A DNA stretch of 33,536 nt, from NCBI GenBank assembly GCA_019721075.1, contig JAHEAD010000020.1:1-33536 (forward strand), read 5' to 3'. This document shows, one piece after another, positions 3,231-16,986 of this stretch (position 1 is the stretch's first letter; each line of letters begins with the position of its first letter). The notes under the pieces are model-generated. The model was given only the letters and a program-made list of their open reading frames with translations, did not search any database and was not told the origin of the DNA. The DNA comes from Candidatus Sysuiplasma jiujiangense (GTDB lineage: Archaea; Thermoplasmatota; Thermoplasmata; Sysuiplasmatales; Sysuiplasmataceae). A program made the position numbers and the translations under genes.

Positions 3231-6200
3231 ATGAAGAGAAAAAGTAGTTACGAATCGATGGGCCAGAGAATTTTGAGCAGCGGCAAAGGGAAAGCTATCG
3301 TTTTGATTGCAGTATTCGCGGTCGCGGTTATGGTCACCTCATCCGCGTTTGGTGCTTTTGTCTTGAGTCCCAAAGCGGGTTACGAACTCCGCAGTGCAAA
3401 GAGTTCTGTTTCTGCTACGCCAAGTGTCACGCCCAATACATGGCCGACCACCACGATGCAGGAACCCGGCTATACCGGCGGTAATTATTCCATGGCTGCT
3501 GTCGCTTCAGTAGAGCATCTCAACATATACCTGGCAGAGGATTTGTATAGTTTCTTCCTTCTCGATGAGATCTACGACTCGCCTGCTGTGACTGCGCCCA
3601 ACAACACACTGATTCCATGGCTCTCCACGGGATGGAGCGAAACCAATGTCACAGGCAAGAATATGACCACTTTTGATCCGCTAAACGCCACGATGCAGAA
3701 TGTGAGCTACATATGGACAGTTCACATCAGGCCTGGTGTACAGTGGACTGACTGGACACCGTCTGGCGCTTCAAGCACTTATATGTTCAGCAATCACACA
3801 TCCTTCGACCTCTATAACTTTACCACAGGCGCCATACAAGGCTTCAATTACACATACAACTGGAGCTCGATGCCTATGCGCACTTATGAAGTCCAGTCGG
3901 CAGATTTTATTCTCACGTGGCTCATGTTGTCTTCTTCATTCGATTTCAGCGGCACATACCTTAACATAGTCAACGTAGAACCTGTAAACAATCTCACTGT
4001 TCAGTATTATCTCAGTGCGCAGTCGGCAAGTTTTGTCGACTATGTTTTACAGGATCCCGTCCTTCCCTACCACATCTGGGTCCAGCACGACTGGTCCAAC
4101 ACCCCGGGGACGTGGAATTACACTGCCTCAGCAAACGGTTACGACACATGGAATATGAATTATAGTGAAGCGACAGGTGTTGCCACTGGACTTGTGGGGA
4201 GTGGTCCTTTCATGATGAACGGCGGCTACGGAATGCCCACCGGAAACTGGAACACCGCAACCGGAAGCTGGGATCTCATTGTGAATCCTCATTATTTTGT
4301 CCAATATGTTCCTTCGCTCGAACAGTGGACGCCAAAGTTCTTTGAACTGAACGTTCCAAAGTATTCTTCCATTTCTGATGCTGCAACGGCTGAAAAGCTC
4401 GGATTGGTGGATACTATTGAACAGGGGCTTCCACCGACTTTCATTCCGACAATTTCGACGATGCCGAACACCTACATATATCACAAGCCTGCATCTTCGT
4501 TCGGCTATATTCAGCTGAACAGCCGCCCGCAGTACGCTCCACTCAACATAACCGCTTTCAGGCAGGCTCTGAACTACGCCACCGACAAGGAGTACATATC
4601 ATCCGTCATTGATGAAGGGTATAACATCAACGGACCAAACGGAATTCCGAGTGCTGATGCTGAATGGTACAATGCGACAGCACCCAATTTCCCATACAAT
4701 CCTTCTCTCGCAAAAAGCATGATAGCCAATATTTCAGGCATGAAATTGGTGAGCGGCGTCTGGAATTACAAGGGCAAGCCTGTTTCAATCACGATTCAGA
4801 TATCGCCTTACAGTGAAGACCCTCTGGCCGTTGAAGGCGCCCAGGTTATCGCGAATGACTGGAACAGTATAGGCGTTCCCACGACTGTTGAACAGATGTC
4901 CTTTACCACGCAGGTTGCTAACACCATCAACTATGCGTTCCAGGCAACAGATCTCGGCATCACAGGGATTTCAGGCGATCCGACGGGCGACTTTATCGTA
5001 TTCTACAACTCGAATTACGCATCGGCAGGCTTCTTCTTCGGACCCTATACAAACATAACCATTGCGGGCAAATTCTACAACACCACCCAGATAACAAATC
5101 TCGTCAACAACCTGACAGTTGAGCTGAATCTAGTTACAAATCTTGCAAAGAGGATAAGCATAGCTGATCAGATTGAAGGAATTGTTGCGCAGGAATCCAC
5201 AATGATTAGCCTGGGCTACCCGATAGACATACTCGAATTCACCAACACTACGTTCACCGGCATAATAAAGGATACTCTTCCGATAGGTTCATTCATGTAC
5301 TGGAACTTCCTGAGCCTCCATCTCAGAAAGAAGCCGTTGCCCATTCCAACCGCCCCACCGGTTCAGCTCAAGGTAGGCATCGTCACACAAAATACCGTCT
5401 ACTGGGACGGGATGTATGGCAACGCAACGGTCCAAGTCAGGAACCAGTATGGCCAGCCGGTTAGCGGCGCAAGTGTTGTAGTTGGCTATACCCCGGCCGG
5501 GCCGCTTGTCAACATTACATCCAACAACGGAACGACGAACAGTGCGGGAATTTACACCTGGGAATTCAAGGTTTCTAATGCAAACGCCATACCCTTCACC
5601 AACGATTACTCGGGGTCAGTAAATATTCAGGCAGCTGCCTCAATGCCTTCCGCAGCCTCTGCATCGGGTCAGACATCGATTGATGTTTCCCCATACCCAG
5701 TAGAGTATAAGACGAGTGGAATGCCCGTCCTCGTAAACGGTTCAGCTCCAAAGGAATTCAACATAACTGTGTTGAACCCCTCCACCAATACACCATTGCC
5801 AAATTACAACTATATAATCCAGGCCCTTAACGGGGCAATCAACATGACGCCGACGAATACTTCTACGCAGACCGTTTCAACGCTCACTTCCTTTAACGCC
5901 TTCGGGTTTGGATTCCAGAACGTGACGATTCTCAATGGAACCTACGATTACAACCTGACTTCAATAAGCGGTTCAACCGGTGCCAATGGTACAATCTCGG
6001 TTTGGTTGGCTGTGAACAGTTCTTCGGTCAACTTTTCAGCGATGGGTGACCCGTTCCAGAGCTGGATCTTCCTTGGCGACTATGCCGGCGGCGGTCCGAT
6101 GAGCGGGCTGTCTGGATTCGCTCCGATTGCACAACTCACTTCCTCCTCAAACAACAACCCGATTAATGGGCCCGAAGGTTTTGGCGTTACTCAGCCGGTA

Positions 6201-7208
6201 GGTCTACCAGTTGAGGTAACAACTTCAGCCCCAACGGTCGAATTGTCCCTCACTTCCAGTGCCGCTACTGTCGGCTATAACGGTAGCGCTTCTGTCTCGA
6301 TCCGTGCAGTTAACGCGACAACGGGCGCCGGCGTACCCAACTACAATGTCACTCTACAGCTTCAGAATGCACTTGGTGCAAATCGCGGAATGCTCCTTAA
6401 TTCAAGCGGCACCGAAATTCAGGCATTTAACCCGAACATATACTTCGCCAGCACTTATCTTCCAGCGATAGAACTCACGACAAGTGCTGGAGGTTATGCA
6501 AACGCGACATTCTCAGCGGATATGTTCACAAGCAACTACAACTCCACAGGAGTGTTCACATCTTATTCGTCAATCCCGTTTACAGATCCGTATCTGGTTC
6601 CGTTCGATGAATTCCAGCTTAGCGCTGTTGGTGCAGACATGCAGGTGGCTTTACTCACTATCACATCCACTGCTTTCGTCAACAGTGTATCACCGGTTCC
6701 TGTAGCCACAGGATATGTACAGAGCTCGCAGCTTGTAAATGGCAACATGGTGATATATGGAAACTCCACCTACAACCTGTATGTGAATTCGACGCTGAAC
6801 TCTCCATACGGGCCATCGACCGCGGGTGTTGCGGCAACTGTGTCCGTAACCGCAGGCAGCGTCAGTTCGGCAACGGTGACCACATCTTCCAACGGCTCTG
6901 CACTGGTGACCTACACATCCCCCAATGTTACGGCAATTGTAGCAGCGACCATAACAGTCTCAACCTCTTCAGGTAACTCGACTCTCACCCTCTACATCCT
7001 GCCGAAACCCTATGTTGCGCCGGTAACTGTCACGAAGTCCAAGACTGTGTCAACGATTCCGGCTACCCTTTATGCAGGACTTGGTGTATTCGTCGTGCTG
7101 ACTGTGATATTTGCAGCACTCTATGTCACTGCAAACCGCAAGCTACACCGTGTCGTGAAGACTGAGGAAAAACCGCCAGAGCATGACGAAGGGCAAGGTA
7201 AGACCTGA
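3231..7208 (+). CDS. giant oligopeptide-binding protein with Ig-like repeats and double membrane anchor
   Basis: Extracellular substrate-binding component of a dipeptide/oligopeptide ABC importer (SBP_bac_5 family). A hydrophobic segment at about residues 22-45 is a signal or anchor helix. The binding domain runs from about 90 to 700 and ends with the typical passage on the last lobe (around YWNFLSLHLRKK). About 570 residues then resemble Ig-like/invasin-type beta domains (for example VQVRNQYGQPVSGASV near 735 and YNGSASVSIRAVN near 1016). A second helix at about 1275-1300 is followed by a charged cytoplasmic tail. Usual family members have 500-700 residues, so 1325 is about double. N-x-S/T sequons are very frequent, fitting a heavily glycosylated surface protein. 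It is the first gene of the operon and has its own TATA box and ribosome binding site. The ligand is not determined by sequence. Confidence 0.88.
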   Translation: MKRKSSYESMGQRILSSGKGKAIVLIAVFAVAVMVTSSAFGAFVLSPKAGYELRSAKSSVSATPSVTPNTWPTTTMQEPGYTGGNYSMAAVASVEHLNIYLAEDLYSFFLLDEIYDSPAVTAPNNTLIPWLSTGWSETNVTGKNMTTFDPLNATMQNVSYIWTVHIRPGVQWTDWTPSGASSTYMFSNHTSFDLYNFTTGAIQGFNYTYNWSSMPMRTYEVQSADFILTWLMLSSSFDFSGTYLNIVNVEPVNNLTVQYYLSAQSASFVDYVLQDPVLPYHIWVQHDWSNTPGTWNYTASANGYDTWNMNYSEATGVATGLVGSGPFMMNGGYGMPTGNWNTATGSWDLIVNPHYFVQYVPSLEQWTPKFFELNVPKYSSISDAATAEKLGLVDTIEQGLPPTFIPTISTMPNTYIYHKPASSFGYIQLNSRPQYAPLNITAFRQALNYATDKEYISSVIDEGYNINGPNGIPSADAEWYNATAPNFPYNPSLAKSMIANISGMKLVSGVWNYKGKPVSITIQISPYSEDPLAVEGAQVIANDWNSIGVPTTVEQMSFTTQVANTINYAFQATDLGITGISGDPTGDFIVFYNSNYASAGFFFGPYTNITIAGKFYNTTQITNLVNNLTVELNLVTNLAKRISIADQIEGIVAQESTMISLGYPIDILEFTNTTFTGIIKDTLPIGSFMYWNFLSLHLRKKPLPIPTAPPVQLKVGIVTQNTVYWDGMYGNATVQVRNQYGQPVSGASVVVGYTPAGPLVNITSNNGTTNSAGIYTWEFKVSNANAIPFTNDYSGSVNIQAAASMPSAASASGQTSIDVSPYPVEYKTSGMPVLVNGSAPKEFNITVLNPSTNTPLPNYNYIIQALNGAINMTPTNTSTQTVSTLTSFNAFGFGFQNVTILNGTYDYNLTSISGSTGANGTISVWLAVNSSSVNFSAMGDPFQSWIFLGDYAGGGPMSGLSGFAPIAQLTSSSNNNPINGPEGFGVTQPVGLPVEVTTSAPTVELSLTSSAATVGYNGSASVSIRAVNATTGAGVPNYNVTLQLQNALGANRGMLLNSSGTEIQAFNPNIYFASTYLPAIELTTSAGGYANATFSADMFTSNYNSTGVFTSYSSIPFTDPYLVPFDEFQLSAVGADMQVALLTITSTAFVNSVSPVPVATGYVQSSQLVNGNMVIYGNSTYNLYVNSTLNSPYGPSTAGVAATVSVTAGSVSSATVTTSSNGSALVTYTSPNVTAIVAATITVSTSSGNSTLTLYILPKPYVAPVTVTKSKTVSTIPATLYAGLGVFVVLTVIFAALYVTANRKLHRVVKTEEKPPEHDEGQGKT

Positions 7209-7243: not shown

Positions 7244-7265
7244 CTTTTCTTTTCATATTTTGTTT
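7244..7265 (+). terminator. pyrimidine/T-rich stretch between binding protein and permease genes
   Basis: CTTTTCTTTTCATATTTTG lies in the 78-bp gap after the binding-protein gene. U-rich tracts terminate archaeal transcription, so partial termination here could make the binding protein more abundant than the permeases. No new promoter is obvious, so read-through is expected. Confidence 0.25.
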
Positions 7266-7286
7266 AGGGCACAGGGGTGCTGCTGT

Positions 7287-8276
7287 TTGAATGTATATCT
7301 GATAATCAGGAAATTAGTCCAGGTCGTTATACTTCTTGTACTGATGGCCGCCGTACTTTTTGTAATATTCAGGCTGATGCCGGGTAATCCGGTTGATCTC
7401 TTTATTTATGGAGCAAAGACACACTATGCCACATCAACCGAAATAAAGATAGTCGAAGCAAGACTTGGACTGACCGGCGGCAAGTGGAATTTCCACAATT
7501 TCGTCGTGTATATGGTGGATATGTTCACGTTCAATTTCGGCTATGATTACTTTTCACAGGCAACAGTTTGGCAGATTATACTTAATGCCCTTCCATACTC
7601 CCTGCTGCTGCTGGGAACCGCCCTTGCACTTTCATTTGTAATCGGCCTTCCGATAGGCATACTCGCCACCTGGTACCGTGGCAAAAAGAAGGAAGCCGTC
7701 ATAAATACATCAAACCTGATACTCAATTCCATACCATACTTCATACTGGCCATACTGTTCTATCTGTATTTTGTTGCATTCTATCCAATATTTCCTGTCA
7801 ATGGATCGTTCGGAACCTACGATCTGTATCATATGTACTATCCGGCAATTTTTGCCAAGGTGCTCTATAAAATGACACTTCCACTGCTCTCCCTTGTTCT
7901 GGTGGAGGAGGCTGCCCATGTCCTTACAATGAGAGCTGCGATGGTTTCTGTCATGGGCGAGGACTTTATCACAACTGCAAGAGCAAAGGGAGTCGCAGAA
8001 CGGACTATTTTCTTCAGGCATGCTGCCAGAAATGCGATGATACCTGTTTCTACCAGGATGGCTCTCGAGTTTGCGTTTCTGACAAGCGGTGCCATATTTG
8101 TTGAGGTCATATTTTCGTGGCCCGGCATCGGCTCTCTCATCTATACTGCAGCGCTGAATGAGGATTATCCGCTAAGTGAAGGCGCCCTTTTCATCATTTC
8201 TCTTGTCGTGATTCTCACGTACTCTATCATTGATTTTATACATGCGTGGCTAGACCCGAGGATAAGCGCCTCTTAG
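7287..8276 (+). CDS. dppB: peptide ABC transporter permease, DppB type
   Basis: Membrane subunit of the peptide importer. The N-terminal helix followed by FRLMPGNPVDL is the hallmark of the DppB/OppB family. Further helices follow, and the cytoplasmic EAA loop (EDFITTARAKGVAERTIFF, plus-strand 7957-8013) contacts the ATPase. The C-terminus WLDPRI is also typical. The frame is open from a TTG at 7260, but the TTG at 7287 is preferred: CAGGGGTG (7272-7279) precedes it by 7 bp, and the product then starts MNVYLIIRKLVQVV, as DppB proteins usually do. Length is about 329 residues, normal for the family. Unlike its partner DppC, it has no inserted ectodomain. It is followed after 10 bp by the dppC gene. 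Confidence 0.9.
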   Translation: MNVYLIIRKLVQVVILLVLMAAVLFVIFRLMPGNPVDLFIYGAKTHYATSTEIKIVEARLGLTGGKWNFHNFVVYMVDMFTFNFGYDYFSQATVWQIILNALPYSLLLLGTALALSFVIGLPIGILATWYRGKKKEAVINTSNLILNSIPYFILAILFYLYFVAFYPIFPVNGSFGTYDLYHMYYPAIFAKVLYKMTLPLLSLVLVEEAAHVLTMRAAMVSVMGEDFITTARAKGVAERTIFFRHAARNAMIPVSTRMALEFAFLTSGAIFVEVIFSWPGIGSLIYTAALNEDYPLSEGALFIISLVVILTYSIIDFIHAWLDPRISAS

Positions 8277-8286
8277 CGGTGTTCAC

Positions 8287-10557
8287 ATGCCTTCCAAAGA
8301 CCAAGCATCAAATGTAGGGTTTTACAGGATGAGACTGCGATTTGCGCTCATCAACCTGCGCAAACAATGGAGACTCTACTACAGATCGGCCTACGGCAAA
8401 GCAGGACTCTACATGCTTATATTTTTCATCATAATCTCGGTGGCCGCGCCAATCATCACCATGCATCCCCCTGAGACATTTTTTGCCCCGCAGATAGACG
8501 CGTACGTCGCAACACAGGAAATGGCATCTCCCGTTGTGTCTTCAGGAACCTATTCGGCCGCAAATATTTACGCACCTGTTTCATCACTTCTGAGTCCTAC
8601 GGGCAGTTATCTTGTATACGTCAGCACCCCGGGCGGCAGGGTGGTGGCTGTAGGGCTCGGAGCTTCACCGGACACCCCGGAGGGATCTGTTTTCGAAATT
8701 GCGAACGCTTCCGTCCCGAGTGGCGGCTTCGCATTTCCTGCAAGCGTCTTTCCTCTCTCCAATTACCAGTCCCTGATCACGACCTCGACACTGAACTACA
8801 GCAACTACATGATGGTCTCATCAACTGGAGGAGGGATAAGCAGCATAAGAGTCAGCGAGCTGGAATGGTCTGGAGGAATACCAGGATACGGAAAGATACG
8901 CGTTTTGGACAATGAGACTGTCAGATTGAACGGAACGCTCCTCCTTTCTCCGGACACCAATTCGCCTTCGACTGCTGCTCCGCTTCCTCCCTGGGTGCCT
9001 TTCAATAGCCCTTCCGCCGAAATCAATGGTTTCACCTCTGCAATGATCTTTGCCATAATCAGCAATTCGAGCGGCACCTTTCTTGAGGCATACGGCATCA
9101 ATCCGATGACGCTGATGTGGTCTCTTCCACTTCCTGGAAACGGTACAGCTGCAGAACCGCTTTACATGGGATCGTATTACAGTCCTGGCAAGATATCCTC
9201 TGCAACGCTTCTTGTCGAAAGAAGCAATTCCATTGCCGGCCTGAATCCTGTGACGGGCAAAATAGCGTGGCTGCAGGATAATTTCACCTCGCCACTCAAT
9301 ACTACGATCGGCCTAAAGGCACCACAAGATTACCAGATTCTCAACTCACCCAACAACAGCGCGATGTTCGTCTCCGGCAATAGGCTGCTTGGCATAAATG
9401 TGCTGAACGGCAGCGTTTACACCATTTACACTACGAAGACGGATATAACGACCTTTGCCACGACACCCGGCAGCTCAGGCTTTCCTTCTTCGATTATCGC
9501 AGTTACCCATTACCATTTCTACCTCATACGTGGACAGGGGCGTCTTTACGCAGGCGGCAAGATCAAGATACCTGTGGTATCTGGTGATTTCCTCAGTTCG
9601 CCGCTGTATGATCCCAATACCCAGACATTTGTTTTGCTTTCCACTCAGGGATCCATGGTTTCTGTTTCATCAATCGTTGGCAAATATCCCTTCCTCTGGC
9701 ATGCTAGTTATCTTCCCGGGACTCAGGACTCCCCCCCGTCGCTCCTCGCGAATGCGAATACGGGAGGTTACTCCCTCGCGTTCAACAACCGTAATGGCAA
9801 ACTCGTTCTGTACTCGATGGTCGGTTCAGACAAGAATCCGCTCCCCCCGACACTGCACTCTCCATCGGGTAATGTCTATCTCTTCGGCACGAACATTTAC
9901 GGGCAGGACTTGTGGAGTCAGTGGGTCGCCAGTTTTCCCGTTGATTTGGAGGTTGGAATTGTTGTAGCGGCTGGAACGCTGCTGATATCCGTCGTAGTTG
10001 CAATGCTCGTAGGATATCTGGGTGGCTTCGTTGGTTCGTCGCTTGAAACATTCTCGCTAATTATCTTTCTCATTCCGACGATCCCTCTTGTGATAGTAAT
10101 GGCCTCTATCCTTGGAAGCAAATCGCTTTTGAATATCATACTCGTATTCATCGCAGTCGGTTGGCCTTTCACGACATTCACGCTCATCGGAGTTGTCAAA
10201 TCGCTGCGTTCCCGTACGTTCATTGAAGCATCAAAGGCATGCGGAGCTGGGACGATGCAGATCCTCCGAAGACACATGCTTTCAAACATGACACCACTGC
10301 TGGCGTACCTTACGGCGATAGGTATAGGTGCGGCGGTCGGGGGCATTTCAGGTCTGCAGGTGCTTGGAATTGGCCCGACAGACATACCAACATGGGGAGC
10401 AATGCTCAATCCATTTTACACTAATTTCTTTCTTGTGGCAAGAGCATGGTGGTGGGTCATTCCGCCGACAGTAACACTCACTGCGTTTATATTCATGTTC
10501 GTTTTCATATCGCGGGGACTGGACGAAGTGGTCAATCCGCGTCTCAGGAGGCGCTGA
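8287..10557 (+). CDS. dppC: DppC-type permease with a large propeller-like ectodomain insertion
   Basis: Second membrane subunit of the importer. The N-terminal cytoplasmic stretch and first helix (about residues 38-60) are normal. About 460 extra residues (65-525) then follow before the family motif FGTNIYGQDLWSQW (from about 531), which in ordinary DppC lies soon after helix 1. The remaining helices, the EAA loop (EASKACGAGTMQILRRHML, near 647) and the end (VNPRLRR) are canonical. The insertion must lie outside the membrane. It holds repeated segments like PQQ/WD-type blades (SNSIAGLNPVTGKIAW, GNRLLGINVLNGSVY, NRNGKLVLYS), so a beta-propeller is likely but not proven. At 756 residues it is more than twice the usual ~300. 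No frame break is seen; the reading frame crosses both junctions. Confidence 0.88.
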   Translation: MPSKDQASNVGFYRMRLRFALINLRKQWRLYYRSAYGKAGLYMLIFFIIISVAAPIITMHPPETFFAPQIDAYVATQEMASPVVSSGTYSAANIYAPVSSLLSPTGSYLVYVSTPGGRVVAVGLGASPDTPEGSVFEIANASVPSGGFAFPASVFPLSNYQSLITTSTLNYSNYMMVSSTGGGISSIRVSELEWSGGIPGYGKIRVLDNETVRLNGTLLLSPDTNSPSTAAPLPPWVPFNSPSAEINGFTSAMIFAIISNSSGTFLEAYGINPMTLMWSLPLPGNGTAAEPLYMGSYYSPGKISSATLLVERSNSIAGLNPVTGKIAWLQDNFTSPLNTTIGLKAPQDYQILNSPNNSAMFVSGNRLLGINVLNGSVYTIYTTKTDITTFATTPGSSGFPSSIIAVTHYHFYLIRGQGRLYAGGKIKIPVVSGDFLSSPLYDPNTQTFVLLSTQGSMVSVSSIVGKYPFLWHASYLPGTQDSPPSLLANANTGGYSLAFNNRNGKLVLYSMVGSDKNPLPPTLHSPSGNVYLFGTNIYGQDLWSQWVASFPVDLEVGIVVAAGTLLISVVVAMLVGYLGGFVGSSLETFSLIIFLIPTIPLVIVMASILGSKSLLNIILVFIAVGWPFTTFTLIGVVKSLRSRTFIEASKACGAGTMQILRRHMLSNMTPLLAYLTAIGIGAAVGGISGLQVLGIGPTDIPTWGAMLNPFYTNFFLVARAWWWVIPPTVTLTAFIFMFVFISRGLDEVVNPRLRRR

Positions 10558-10558
10558 T

Positions 10559-12790
10559 TTGGTAACTGAAACTATGCTTCACGTAACGCCCAAGCAGACA
10601 GTTTCATCCCCTGTAGTCGAAATTAAAGATTTTTCGGTAAACTTTACCACCGCTGACGGAACACTCAATGCTCTTGACAGGGTGAATCTCACAATTGAGA
10701 AAGGAGAAATATTGGGTATCCTGGGTGAGAGCGGCTCGGGAAAGTCCACACTGGCACTTTCCATGATGGGCATGCTGCCGGAGAACGCGCATGTAACGGG
10801 GGAGGTAATGCTTCTTAACACGACTGTTTCCGCTCCTGATATTTCCGGTGCGGCGTTTCTGAAAATGAAAAGGAGACGTTCAAAGATCCTGAGCGAAAAA
10901 CTCCGCAACATCCGGTGGAAGTCCGTTTCGATGGTCTTCCAGGGTTCGATGAATGCGTTCAATCCTGTTTATACCATCTACAGACAAATAGCCGAAGTAT
11001 ACCGCATACACACAAACTTTGATAAGGAAACAATAAGGAAAAAGGTAACCGAGACTGTGAAGAAGGCGGGTCTCAATCCAGTGATCCTTGATTCATATCC
11101 TCATGAGCTCAGCGGCGGAATGAAACAGAGAGCAGTAATCGCGATGGCGCTTGCGCTTAATCCCACCATGGTCATCGCCGACGAGCCGACAACCGGGCTC
11201 GACGTGGTGACGCAGGCAAGGATCATCGGCGAACTGAAGACAACTGTTAGGAACCAGGTCAAGTCAATGGTCATCATTTCACACGATATCGGAGTTGTTG
11301 CACAGCTTGCGACAAGGGTGATCGTCCTTTATGCAGGCAGAATAATGGAAATAGGCAGCATCGAAGATATCTACATTAACCCGGTAAATCCTTACACGAA
11401 AGCTTCCCTGGAGAGTTATCCTTCCCTTGCAGCAAAGAAGACGTTCATGCGCGGCATACCTGGTGTTCCACCTGATTTGATGTCCATGTCTGCTGGCTGC
11501 AGGTTTGCCCCGCGGTGCATGTATGCGAAGGACATATGCAGCATCGAGGATCCTCCACTTGTTAAGGTCTCAGGTGGGCACTTCAGCCGATGCCATTTTG
11601 CATCAGATATTGCCGCCGGAAAGGGAGAATTGACTTCCTCGCGACAGGCAGCATCCGATATAATGAAACATGCAAAGCCCGAAGAGGAAGTTATGAAAGT
11701 TGAGAGCCTCACAAAGTATTTCGATCTCAGGACTTCCCTTGCCGGCCGCATTTTCAGCAGGCCTGGATCAGCAAGACTGGTAAGAGCTGTAGATCATGTC
11801 AGTTTCGAAGTGATGAGAGGCGAGATACTGGGCGTCGTGGGGGAAAGCGGAAGCGGAAAAACCACATTCGGAAGGACGGCCATATCCTTGATTAAGCCGA
11901 CTTCAGGAAAGGTAATTCTCTCCGTAAAAATTACAAATCAGCCTGAGCTTGCGTCGCCGCCGGATATCAATGTTCTGCGGAATTCCTCCGTCGAAGATCA
12001 CGTGCTCGATGTTTCTGCCGAGCGCAAAGGGAGGAAGGAGATGCGTCTGCTCAGGGAAAAGACACAGATGATCTTCCAGGATCCTTATGATTCACTGGAT
12101 CCGAAAATGACCATATTCGATATCGTGAGGGAACCTATAATCGCGCACAGAACAACGAAGGACCCAAATGAGGAACTCCGGATGGTCAAAGAGGCACTTA
12201 CTGTCGTTAGACTCAATCCGCCTGAGAATTTCATAAACAGGTATCCGCATGAATTATCCGGCGGCGAAAGACAGCGTGTTGCTGCTGCGCGGGCACTAGT
12301 GCTCAAGCCGGATCTTCTTGTCGCGGATGAACCGATATCGATGCTCGATGTTTCTCTCAGGGCCGGATTCATGAATCTTCTTCTTGAGCTGCGCAAAAAT
12401 TACGGTATAACGATAATCTACATAACACACGATCTGGCATCTGCGCGGTATGTCTCAGACAGGATAGTTGTCATGTATCTGGGTGTTGCGGTAGAACTGG
12501 GTGACGCCGAAGAGGTGGTGAGCAGGCCGCTGCATCCTTACACAAAGGCGCTTATTGAGGCTGTTCCTCTTCCAACACCGAACTGGAATCCGAAGGGACT
12601 GAAAATAATAGGCGAGATTGGGAACGCTGTCAATGTACCGAAAGGATGCAGATTCTACGACAGGTGTGTTTACCGGCAGGAAATATGCAGGGATAACGTT
12701 CCACCACGCAGAAGCGAGAAAAATCACTGGTATCTCTGTCACTTCTCACAGGAGGAACTTGAGGGTTTTGAACCCCCGGGACAGTCGTGA
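10559..12790 (+). CDS. fused peptide ABC transporter ATPases (DppD-DppF in one chain)
   Basis: Energises the importer. Two complete nucleotide-binding domains lie in one 743-residue chain. Domain 1 has Walker A GESGSGKS (about 56-63), signature LSGGMKQR (~184), Walker B with DEPTTGLD and the H-loop SHD. Domain 2 has GESGSGKT (~428), LSGGERQR (~566), DEPISMLD and THD. Each ends with the oligopeptide-type C-terminal domain bearing four cysteines (CRFAPRC...C...C, and CRFYDRC...C...HWYLC), a pattern reported to hold an iron-sulfur cluster in some dipeptide transporter ATPases. Usually DppD and DppF are separate proteins. The TTG start at 10559 is chosen because AGGAGG (10546-10551) precedes it by 7 bp and it follows the dppC stop by one base, implying translational coupling; the alternative is ATG at 10574. 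Confidence 0.92.
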   Translation: MVTETMLHVTPKQTVSSPVVEIKDFSVNFTTADGTLNALDRVNLTIEKGEILGILGESGSGKSTLALSMMGMLPENAHVTGEVMLLNTTVSAPDISGAAFLKMKRRRSKILSEKLRNIRWKSVSMVFQGSMNAFNPVYTIYRQIAEVYRIHTNFDKETIRKKVTETVKKAGLNPVILDSYPHELSGGMKQRAVIAMALALNPTMVIADEPTTGLDVVTQARIIGELKTTVRNQVKSMVIISHDIGVVAQLATRVIVLYAGRIMEIGSIEDIYINPVNPYTKASLESYPSLAAKKTFMRGIPGVPPDLMSMSAGCRFAPRCMYAKDICSIEDPPLVKVSGGHFSRCHFASDIAAGKGELTSSRQAASDIMKHAKPEEEVMKVESLTKYFDLRTSLAGRIFSRPGSARLVRAVDHVSFEVMRGEILGVVGESGSGKTTFGRTAISLIKPTSGKVILSVKITNQPELASPPDINVLRNSSVEDHVLDVSAERKGRKEMRLLREKTQMIFQDPYDSLDPKMTIFDIVREPIIAHRTTKDPNEELRMVKEALTVVRLNPPENFINRYPHELSGGERQRVAAARALVLKPDLLVADEPISMLDVSLRAGFMNLLLELRKNYGITIIYITHDLASARYVSDRIVVMYLGVAVELGDAEEVVSRPLHPYTKALIEAVPLPTPNWNPKGLKIIGEIGNAVNVPKGCRFYDRCVYRQEICRDNVPPRRSEKNHWYLCHFSQEELEGFEPPGQS

Positions 12791-15138: not shown

Positions 15139-16986
15139 TTAATTACCGGAAAGGAGATGTTTACACAGGAAGCGATATGTCCGCATCTGGGAGTCTATGA
15201 TATTTTCCATTTTTTCGAACGAGTGCCCCTCACCCCGGTAGAATTTAAAATCCAACGGAACTCGCATCTTTTCAATTTTTTCCTTTGCCTGAAGGGACTC
15301 CGAAAGCGGGCATCTCGGATCATTTTCGCCTGCAATGATCTGCACCGGGGCACGTATCCTGTCCAGGAAGAAAACAGGGGACGCGCTCCTCAATCTGTCT
15401 GAGTCCCGCACCGGATCTCCCATATTCTGGATGTCCCAGTATCTGAGGTCCTCGCGTTCACTTTCCATTTCTGTGAACCAGTTAAGGAACGGAACGGTCG
15501 CCGAACCAGCGCACCATCTGTCGGGATAAAACACGAGCGAGCACATTGTGAGGTAACCGCCAAACGACGCACCCATCACGGCAATTTTGTTTCCGGAGGC
15601 AAGCCCGTTTTCCGTCAGGTATTTCCAGGCACCCACGCAGTCCGCGAGGTCGGCTGATCCCATTACAAACCTGTTTGCATCCCTGAACTTCCTCCCGTAA
15701 CCTGAACTTCCGCGGTAATTTGGACAAATGACTGAAATGCCGGTTAGGACAAAACTCTGTATCAGCGGATCCCATTTGTCATACGACCTCCAGGTTGGTC
15801 CGCCATGTATCGCAATGACAGCTGCATTTGCGTCCGAATCAGATTTTGCCCTGTAGAGCAGGGCCGGAATTGCCAGCCCGTCATGTTCCGACGGATAGCG
15901 CACCTCTACCGGCGAAACGAAGCCGTCCGTGATTTCCGGAGAAGAAAAACTTTGCGTGAGCCATTTGCCTTTCCCTGATGAAGTGTCGAAAAGACGGATG
16001 TTCGTGGGGCTGCCAGTGTCCTCGGCAAGCATGAAGATCTGTTTTCCATCAGCACTGAGATTGTGCCTGTAGCACCATCCTCCGAGAAAATCTGCCGTGT
16101 CTATTACATTACCGCCGTTCAGGTCAATTATCTTGGGCAGAAGAGAGACGCTTCCTTCCCTGAGACAGGAGAGGAACCTGCCGTCTCCAGAGAAAACTGG
16201 AGAAGAACAATTTTCGTCTTCACCCGTCAACCATCGGATTCCGTTAAGATTGTGATCCGTTATCCCTACTCTTTCTGCGTCACCCTGCATTGACGAAAAT
16301 GCAAGTGTCTTAGAATCGCCGGCCCAGCATGGGGTGGAAGCATCCACGGCGACTCCGTCAATTTCGAGGAACTTTCCGGTGCCACTCCCTTCCTCTTTCG
16401 CCGAGCGTACCGATATGCAATTCTCCTCACCTTCGCGACTGGACGAAACAGCAACGTATCTGCCGTCCGGCGAGATAACTGCTGCATTGTCAGAGAAGGA
16501 ATGGCGCGTAATTCTGCTCATTTTGGAGGATTTCACATCCATAACAAATGCTGCGAATTCCCCTTCACGGTTGGAAACAAATGCCGCCTTCCCTCCTGCC
16601 TCATCGACTGAAAGAGGCGGCAGGATTGAGTAATCTGTATCAGGCGTCAGGTTTCTTACCTCTCCAAGAACGAATTTTCCATCCTTTGGCTTGATTGTCG
16701 AAACAAATATGTCGTTTTTCTCGTCGCCACCGACGTCGCCAAGGAATAGCAAATGGCTGCCCCCGCCGATCAATTTCAGCGACACATAAGATCTGTCCTC
16801 AGCGGAAAGGAGGGATGAGCTGTATTTCCCATCGCTTCGTGGATCAAGTAGATACAGTTTCCTGCCATCGTCCGTATTTACGCTATAGACTATCCTTCCT
16901 GTTGATATCTCAACGTCGAATGAAATCACATATTGGGCGCTGAAAAGCTGTTCAAGCCGATTTTTATTAATTTCCTTCAATGGCAT
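15139..16986 (-). CDS. S9-family serine peptidase (acylaminoacyl-peptidase/prolyl oligopeptidase type)
   Basis: Cleaves oligopeptides, probably in the cytoplasm because no signal peptide is seen. The N-terminal ~350 residues form a beta-propeller with repeated YSVNTDDGRKLYL- and SPDGRYVAVSS-like blades. The C-terminal ~240 residues are an alpha/beta hydrolase containing HGGPTW, the oxyanion-region NYRGSSGYG, the nucleophile Ser474 in GASFGG, Asp556 in ENDPRCP and His588 in GEGHSF, so the triad is complete. The 615-residue length is normal for the family. A TATA-like box at 17028-17037 gives a ~20-nt leader before the ATG. Lying close to a peptide importer, it could degrade imported peptides, though it is on the other strand and about 2.3 kb away. 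The exact specificity (acylpeptide or dipeptidyl release) cannot be told. Confidence 0.9.
   Translation of the reverse strand: MPLKEINKNRLEQLFSAQYVISFDVEISTGRIVYSVNTDDGRKLYLLDPRSDGKYSSSLLSAEDRSYVSLKLIGGGSHLLFLGDVGGDEKNDIFVSTIKPKDGKFVLGEVRNLTPDTDYSILPPLSVDEAGGKAAFVSNREGEFAAFVMDVKSSKMSRITRHSFSDNAAVISPDGRYVAVSSSREGEENCISVRSAKEEGSGTGKFLEIDGVAVDASTPCWAGDSKTLAFSSMQGDAERVGITDHNLNGIRWLTGEDENCSSPVFSGDGRFLSCLREGSVSLLPKIIDLNGGNVIDTADFLGGWCYRHNLSADGKQIFMLAEDTGSPTNIRLFDTSSGKGKWLTQSFSSPEITDGFVSPVEVRYPSEHDGLAIPALLYRAKSDSDANAAVIAIHGGPTWRSYDKWDPLIQSFVLTGISVICPNYRGSSGYGRKFRDANRFVMGSADLADCVGAWKYLTENGLASGNKIAVMGASFGGYLTMCSLVFYPDRWCAGSATVPFLNWFTEMESEREDLRYWDIQNMGDPVRDSDRLRSASPVFFLDRIRAPVQIIAGENDPRCPLSESLQAKEKIEKMRVPLDFKFYRGEGHSFEKMENIIDSQMRTYRFLCKHLLSGN

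Follow-up and report, generated by a model that had tools for sequence, protein, structure and literature searches.

A DppC-type permease gene in the window (the whole stretch of DNA analysed here, 33,536 nucleotides from Candidatus Sysuiplasma jiujiangense) carries an insert of some 460 residues behind its first transmembrane helix (TM1), and this insert is confidently predicted to fold as a BamB-like beta-propeller. On balance, we lean towards the view that the propeller was inserted ancestrally and acts as a docking platform for the stalked substrate-binding protein (SBP) encoded in the same operon.

A DppC gene interrupted by a large insert

The operon runs in the order SBP_bac_5 protein, DppB, ectodomain DppC and fused DppD-DppF, an arrangement that is repeated in related loci. 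The four genes and the permease parts of DppC are as follows:

3231..7208, forward strand: oversized substrate-binding protein, 1325 aa (Pfam SBP_bac_5, 1.4e-29; hydropathy)
7260..8276, forward strand: DppB permease of ordinary length, 338 aa (BPD_transp_1, 1.6e-34; BPD_transp_1_N; Opp2B/Opp4B models)
8287..10557, forward strand: DppC with inserted ectodomain, 756 aa (frame, Pfam, alignment, model)
8401..8457, forward strand: TM1 of DppC, residues 39-57 (hydropathy; model helix 35-57)
9877..10554, forward strand: core permease domain of DppC, residues 531-756, from the FGTN..GQD motif, with EAA-type loop FIEASKACGAGTMQILRRHMLSNM (BPD_transp_1 569-755; Foldseek)
10559..12790, forward strand: DppD-DppF fusion ATPase, 743 aa (ABC_tran and oligo_HPY each matched in two stretches)

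The DppC gene is a single open frame of 756 codons from its ATG. Pfam places the two halves of a DppC about 460 residues apart in this protein: BPD_transp_1 matches residues 569-755 (50.9 bits, cut-off 26.4), and OppC_N matches residues 28-67 weakly (17.8 bits, cut-off 23.9), reaching E<=0.01 in 17 of 29 homologues, with 4e-6 as the best value. Residues ~60-530 form the interruption between TM1 and the FGTN..GQD motif, and the stretch between the two Pfam matches scores above the cut-off of no curated family. These results confirm an earlier note on this DNA, which had described a continuous 756-codon frame with TM1 and an FGT..G.D motif about 460 residues apart. The note also gave the usual length of DppC as about 300 residues, in agreement with the 287-302 aa of the solved DppC and OppC proteins.

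Against the Opp4C model the window DppC scores 127 bits where 350 are required, and against PRK10913 DppC it scores 78 bits where 483 are required, reaching neither. These sequence scores place it in the wider DppC/OppC family as a divergent member, not as an equivalog of either model. The same genome encodes two ordinary DppC paralogues (frames of 362 and 334 aa), so the long DppC belongs to a special system within the same cell.

Two further observations concern the neighbourhood. The DppD-DppF fusion is also found in the nearest relatives, and more distant ones have two separate genes. An S9 prolyl-oligopeptidase-family peptidase is encoded near the operon (15139-16986, reverse strand) and would fit a peptide-using lifestyle.

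Predicted fold of the insert

AlphaFold2 models were built on an alignment of 29 rows, comprising the window DppC and 28 homologues. The full-length protein gave a pLDDT of 84.7. For the insert alone, the prediction that had been proposed earlier as a check for a compact fold, the result was confident (pLDDT 87.5, pTM 0.87). When the isolated insert was searched with Foldseek, all six top PDB matches were BamB, with E values of 3e-9 to 9e-9 and TM-scores by target length of 0.59-0.66. In the search with the whole model, the insert again matched BamB and the C-terminal part matched DppC/OppC of E. coli and M. tuberculosis. The repeated beta-blade-like units that the earlier note had read in the sequence are thus backed by the pTM of the isolated insert and by its best PDB match. 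In sequence comparisons, Pfam PQQ_2 gives 12.8 bits on the insert, below its cut-off of 27.6, and when the insert profile is searched against PDB sequences, BamB ranks first at a non-significant E of 0.089.

Grouped in threes, the strands of the DSSP secondary structure suggest that the propeller has eight blades, the last of which is probably closed by the N-terminal strand 73-82. The insert lies where it had been placed before, while the propeller proper is narrower (residues ~73-515) and is flanked by separate conserved linker motifs. Conservation is given below as relative entropy in the window-family alignment, where the core transmembrane domain (TMD) stands at 2.55:

8464..8502, forward strand: N-terminal junction linker, residues 60-72, APxxD motif (relative entropy 2.25 for 59-72)
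8503..9831, forward strand: predicted BamB-like beta-propeller, residues ~73-515 (AlphaFold2, Foldseek, hhalign)
9322..9357, forward strand: conserved loop of blade 5, residues 346-357, P..YQ (mean relative entropy 1.79 for 347-357; P346 invariant)
9463..9492, forward strand: conserved loop of blade 6, residues 393-402, GSSGFP (relative entropy 1.99, the highest among the A-B loops; P400 invariant)
9832..9876, forward strand: C-terminal junction linker, residues 516-530, NPLPPT....SGN (relative entropy 2.50 for 516-526)

The two linkers approach the TMD in conservation, which suggests a fixed mount for the propeller. Loops on the chain-end face were slightly more conserved than others (p 0.02, with neighbouring residues taken as independent), and we dropped a conserved propeller face as an argument for docking because this bias is weak.

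The same insert in other Thermoplasmata

The earlier note had proposed a search for the same insertion in other Thermoplasmata DppC proteins, and it was found, with the same junctions and at the identical position, in 28 further homologues with 32-50% identity to the window DppC. Across the 29 aligned rows the frames are open and the insert is 421-472 aa long. Compared with the window protein, the homologues are 21-39% identical over the insert and 46-72% over the core permease. Several of the homologues come from one-contig genomes (G038, G081, G209, G067 and G054). A chimeric assembly, a fusion of neighbouring genes or a chance open frame is therefore ruled out for practical purposes by the recurrence of insert and junctions in other genomes and by the confident predicted fold, even though two related copies are broken and indicate that errors or decay occur in such genomes. 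One of these propeller DppCs has a frame change near residue 560 (L031:6139-8504); in the other (L128, G221:C4:554075-556295) the frame is broken near residue 420 and one TAG lies inside. Either case may reflect decay or sequencing error.

Long DppC frames also occur in other Thermoplasmata families. In 21 distant DppCs, PQQ_2 was detected in 10 and the related ACSF4 propeller in 9 (E<=0.001 for both), Kelch repeats were present in one, and in the DppC of L040 PQQ_2 reaches 70.9 bits, above its cut-off. An hhalign comparison of the window-type with the PQQ-type inserts gave a probability of 97.4 and an E of 9.5e-12 over 319 columns, extending into the shared PLPPT junction. This supports a kinship, read from sequence profiles, between the window insert and the PQQ/BamB-type propellers of distant DppCs. 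The match alone would also be compatible with a second insertion of a related propeller, because the two junctions resemble each other and the blade is common to all propellers. Most ectodomain DppCs have APxxD behind TM1 and PLPP..SGN ahead of the LGTD motif, and nearly all short ones are without both. These shared junctions, together with the conserved linkers, speak for a single ancestral insertion on a fixed mount.

Pfam recognised no propeller in the inserts of L052, L053, L055, L045, L051 and L061. The DppC of L051 (L051:1354-4542) has 1063 aa and an acidic insert of repeated units in which no domain was recognised. Among the longest DppC inserts are those at L041:8656-11982 and L042:8820-12032, the latter of ~790 aa and with Kelch repeats, and a second propeller is likely. 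A different route to an ectodomain is seen at L056:6701-8533, L057:9096-10886 and L127:943-3645, where PKD domains lie N-terminal to DppC TM1. In other loci DppB and DppC share one frame, of 1169 aa with a propeller in the middle at L060:5006-8512 and of 1718 aa at L113:4041-9194; the DppB-DppC fusions of L121 and L122 have no recognised propeller. Given the L121 and L122 fusions and the PKD-bearing proteins, a long frame is by itself no proof of an ectodomain.

Phylogeny and distribution

The tree was computed from the core permease domain only, with the insert excluded, and is unrooted, so a group here means one side of a branch. With the long-branch rows L060 and L061 left out (they were removed after the first tree had been seen) and the short L103 counted as a loss, the ectodomain DppCs form one clade, for which one change is enough (support 90/83; 90% of the bootstrap trees). 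The first tree, which included L060 and L061, placed both rows apart and needed three changes. The L051/L059 type of ectodomain DppC lies outside the clade.

By hand count, long DppC frames are present in 95 genomes and about 21 family-level groups of class Thermoplasmata; the count is approximate as it rests on frame length, to which DppB-DppC fusions can contribute. The ectodomain group also takes in a family from another part of the phylum (f54, L119). A scan of genome contigs for further relatives returned a single one. In a plasmid collection outside Thermoplasmata, no record covered 80% of either query, and the four plasmid matches that we examined are ordinary permeases of 273-314 aa. 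The earlier note had written that the subunit "has gained" an external domain; the gain stands, but it is an old one, shared by one clade over about 21 families, and no local novelty.

Binding proteins and DppBs of the ectodomain operons

The SBP of the window has a hydrophobic segment at its N-terminus (14-32) and an SBP_bac_5 domain at 159-595, followed by a tail of almost 700 residues with a Big_1-like (Ig-like) stretch at 731-794, scoring under the cut-off, and a C-terminal hydrophobic helix at 1282-1300. From this sequence layout, the binding domain appears to be held on a long stalk.

To compare operons, we paired each DppC in 18 genomes with the nearest SBP_bac_5 protein on the same strand within 8 kb. 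In each of the 15 ectodomain operons where such a pair was obtained, the SBP measures 872-2203 aa (median 1339), against a median of 614 aa in 35 short-DppC operons (one-sided Mann-Whitney p 7e-7, with the relatedness of the genomes ignored). There are exceptions, in that some short DppCs stand alongside SBPs of 887-1782 aa, and two of 17 ectodomain DppCs (G019 and G157) have no SBP within 8 kb. Hydropathy indicates a C-terminal hydrophobic helix in 14 of the 14 giant SBPs checked. Such a helix is also found in two SBPs of ordinary length (651 and 623 aa), so anchoring is not peculiar to the giant SBPs; the stalk is.

In several ectodomain operons DppB is enlarged as well, to 476-697 aa, by residues that follow its first helix and precede the core; some of these DppBs show weak Ig-like matches:

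L042:12036-13772: enlarged DppB
L043:6044-7471: enlarged DppB
L044:5601-7559: enlarged DppB
L045:5938-7425: enlarged DppB
L047:6142-8178: enlarged DppB
L050:1054-3144: enlarged DppB

Comparison with known systems

ABC importer permeases usually expose little outside the membrane; scoop loops and MalF-P2 are known exceptions. MalF-P2 lies between TM3 and TM4 and is not a propeller. In bacteria, BamB is a free-standing lipoprotein that belongs to the BAM complex of the outer membrane. The window insert resembles BamB (YfgL) and the PQQ_2 propellers in its predicted fold and, by way of the distant DppCs, in remote sequence kinship; it differs in that the propeller is part of an archaeal permease polypeptide.

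With DppC and OppC of known structure (E. coli DppBCDF, 8z1v; M. tuberculosis OppABCD, 8j5q, and DppABCD, 8wd9), the window protein has in common the core TMD, the FGT..G.D motif, the EAA-type loop and an operon with SBP, DppB and ATPases. Over the TMD, Foldseek gives TMt 0.72-0.75, with 0.75 for E. coli DppC. The solved proteins have a short TM1-TM2 loop where the window protein has its propeller domain, and only the C-terminal part of the profile is matched by them.

The insert would share with MalF-P2 that it is a large extracytoplasmic region of a permease, although MalF-P2 is smaller and belongs to another importer family. In the maltose importer, the permease region MalF-P2 (residues 91-271) is large, folded and extracytoplasmic, and it contacts MalE (PMC3150292). 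In E. coli DppB, the TM1-TM2 region forms a periplasmic scoop after TM1 that contacts DppA (PMC12136057). This scoop comprises ~30 residues in two short helices and is in DppB, whereas the window insert is in DppC, likewise after TM1. We found no publication on such a propeller-bearing permease in a search of mainly open-access literature. The parts are each known, and the combination of a propeller-bearing DppC with a giant stalked SBP appears undescribed, on a survey that was limited outside the phylum.

Proposed role of the propeller

Based on these results, we propose that the short extracellular TM1-TM2 loop of DppC was replaced by a BamB/PQQ-like propeller in a common ancestor of many Thermoplasmata. 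The propeller would sit on the outer face of the transporter, held by its two conserved linkers, and would give the SBP of its own operon a raised platform for docking and guidance; the peptide-binding domain of this SBP would hang from a long stalk anchored through the C-terminal helix. By capturing the stalked SBP near the mouth of the TMD, the propeller may favour the hand-over of peptides in cells that lack a periplasm, in a way comparable to the action of MalF-P2 on MalE, though with another fold and position. The fold and the conservation were computed; the outer-face position and the docking role we infer. Where operons encode giant anchored SBPs, the simplest reading of a folded domain between TM1 and TM2 of DppC is a docking and guiding platform, and this reading gains support from the giant SBPs of the ectodomain operons and from the scoop in the TM1-TM2 region of E. 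coli DppB. The contact of MalF-P2 with MalE and the enlarged DppBs of several such operons also count in its favour. Counted against it are the exceptions to the pairing with long SBPs, the faster divergence of the propeller than of the TMD, the weak face bias, and the ectodomain DppCs in which no propeller is recognised. We consider docking somewhat the better bet.

It is rather unlikely that the propeller is instead a receptor for outside peptides, proteins or glycans that feeds or gates the importer, by capture or by sensing. The insert varies fast, and some lineages add Kelch or other domains in a receptor-like manner; propellers are also described as common scaffolds for ligand binding (PMC3797127). 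However, 15 of 17 ectodomain operons already have a dedicated SBP, we found no conserved polar pocket, and Gly, Pro and Trp of structural type are frequent among the best-conserved residues of the insert.

A spacer or surface scaffold, which would lift or shield the transporter in a glycocalyx or bind, for example, extracellular proteases, with no specific docking of the SBP, is unlikely. Long SBPs with C-terminal helices and enlarged DppB loops do suggest importers that reach far off the membrane, and a polysaccharide coat has been proposed for a relative (PMC10354927). A spacer would nevertheless have no need of conserved junction linkers or of the blade 5 and blade 6 loops, and short-DppC importers are present in the same genomes. 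The earlier suggestion of a wall-contacting unit is improbable, since members of the order Thermoplasmatales are described as largely wall-lacking or wall-deficient, with Picrophilus, which has an S-layer, as the exception (PMC10354927). The window is placed near that order through a same-family relative, a Thermoplasmata MAG.

We regard an enzyme fused to the transporter, such as a PQQ-dependent dehydrogenase, as very unlikely: the distant members do have PQQ_2/ACSF4-type kinship, and tetrathionate hydrolase (6l8a) has the same fold and stands at rank 33 among the 50 matches listed, but the best structural match is the non-enzymatic BamB, no quinoprotein dehydrogenase is among the matches listed, and the four genes of the operon include no redox partner.

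Returning to the docking platform, we tentatively extend it, at a little under an even chance for the picture as a whole, to a "tower and stalk" peptide importer of Thermoplasmata, in which a permease-borne propeller tower and a stalked, anchored SBP, in some cases together with an extra Kelch propeller or a further ectodomain carried by DppB, would be adapted to the lack of a periplasm. A class-wide clade of propeller-bearing DppCs with giant stalked SBPs would show how importers adapt where no periplasm confines the SBP, and it would offer a directly testable case of SBP docking through a domain carried by the permease.
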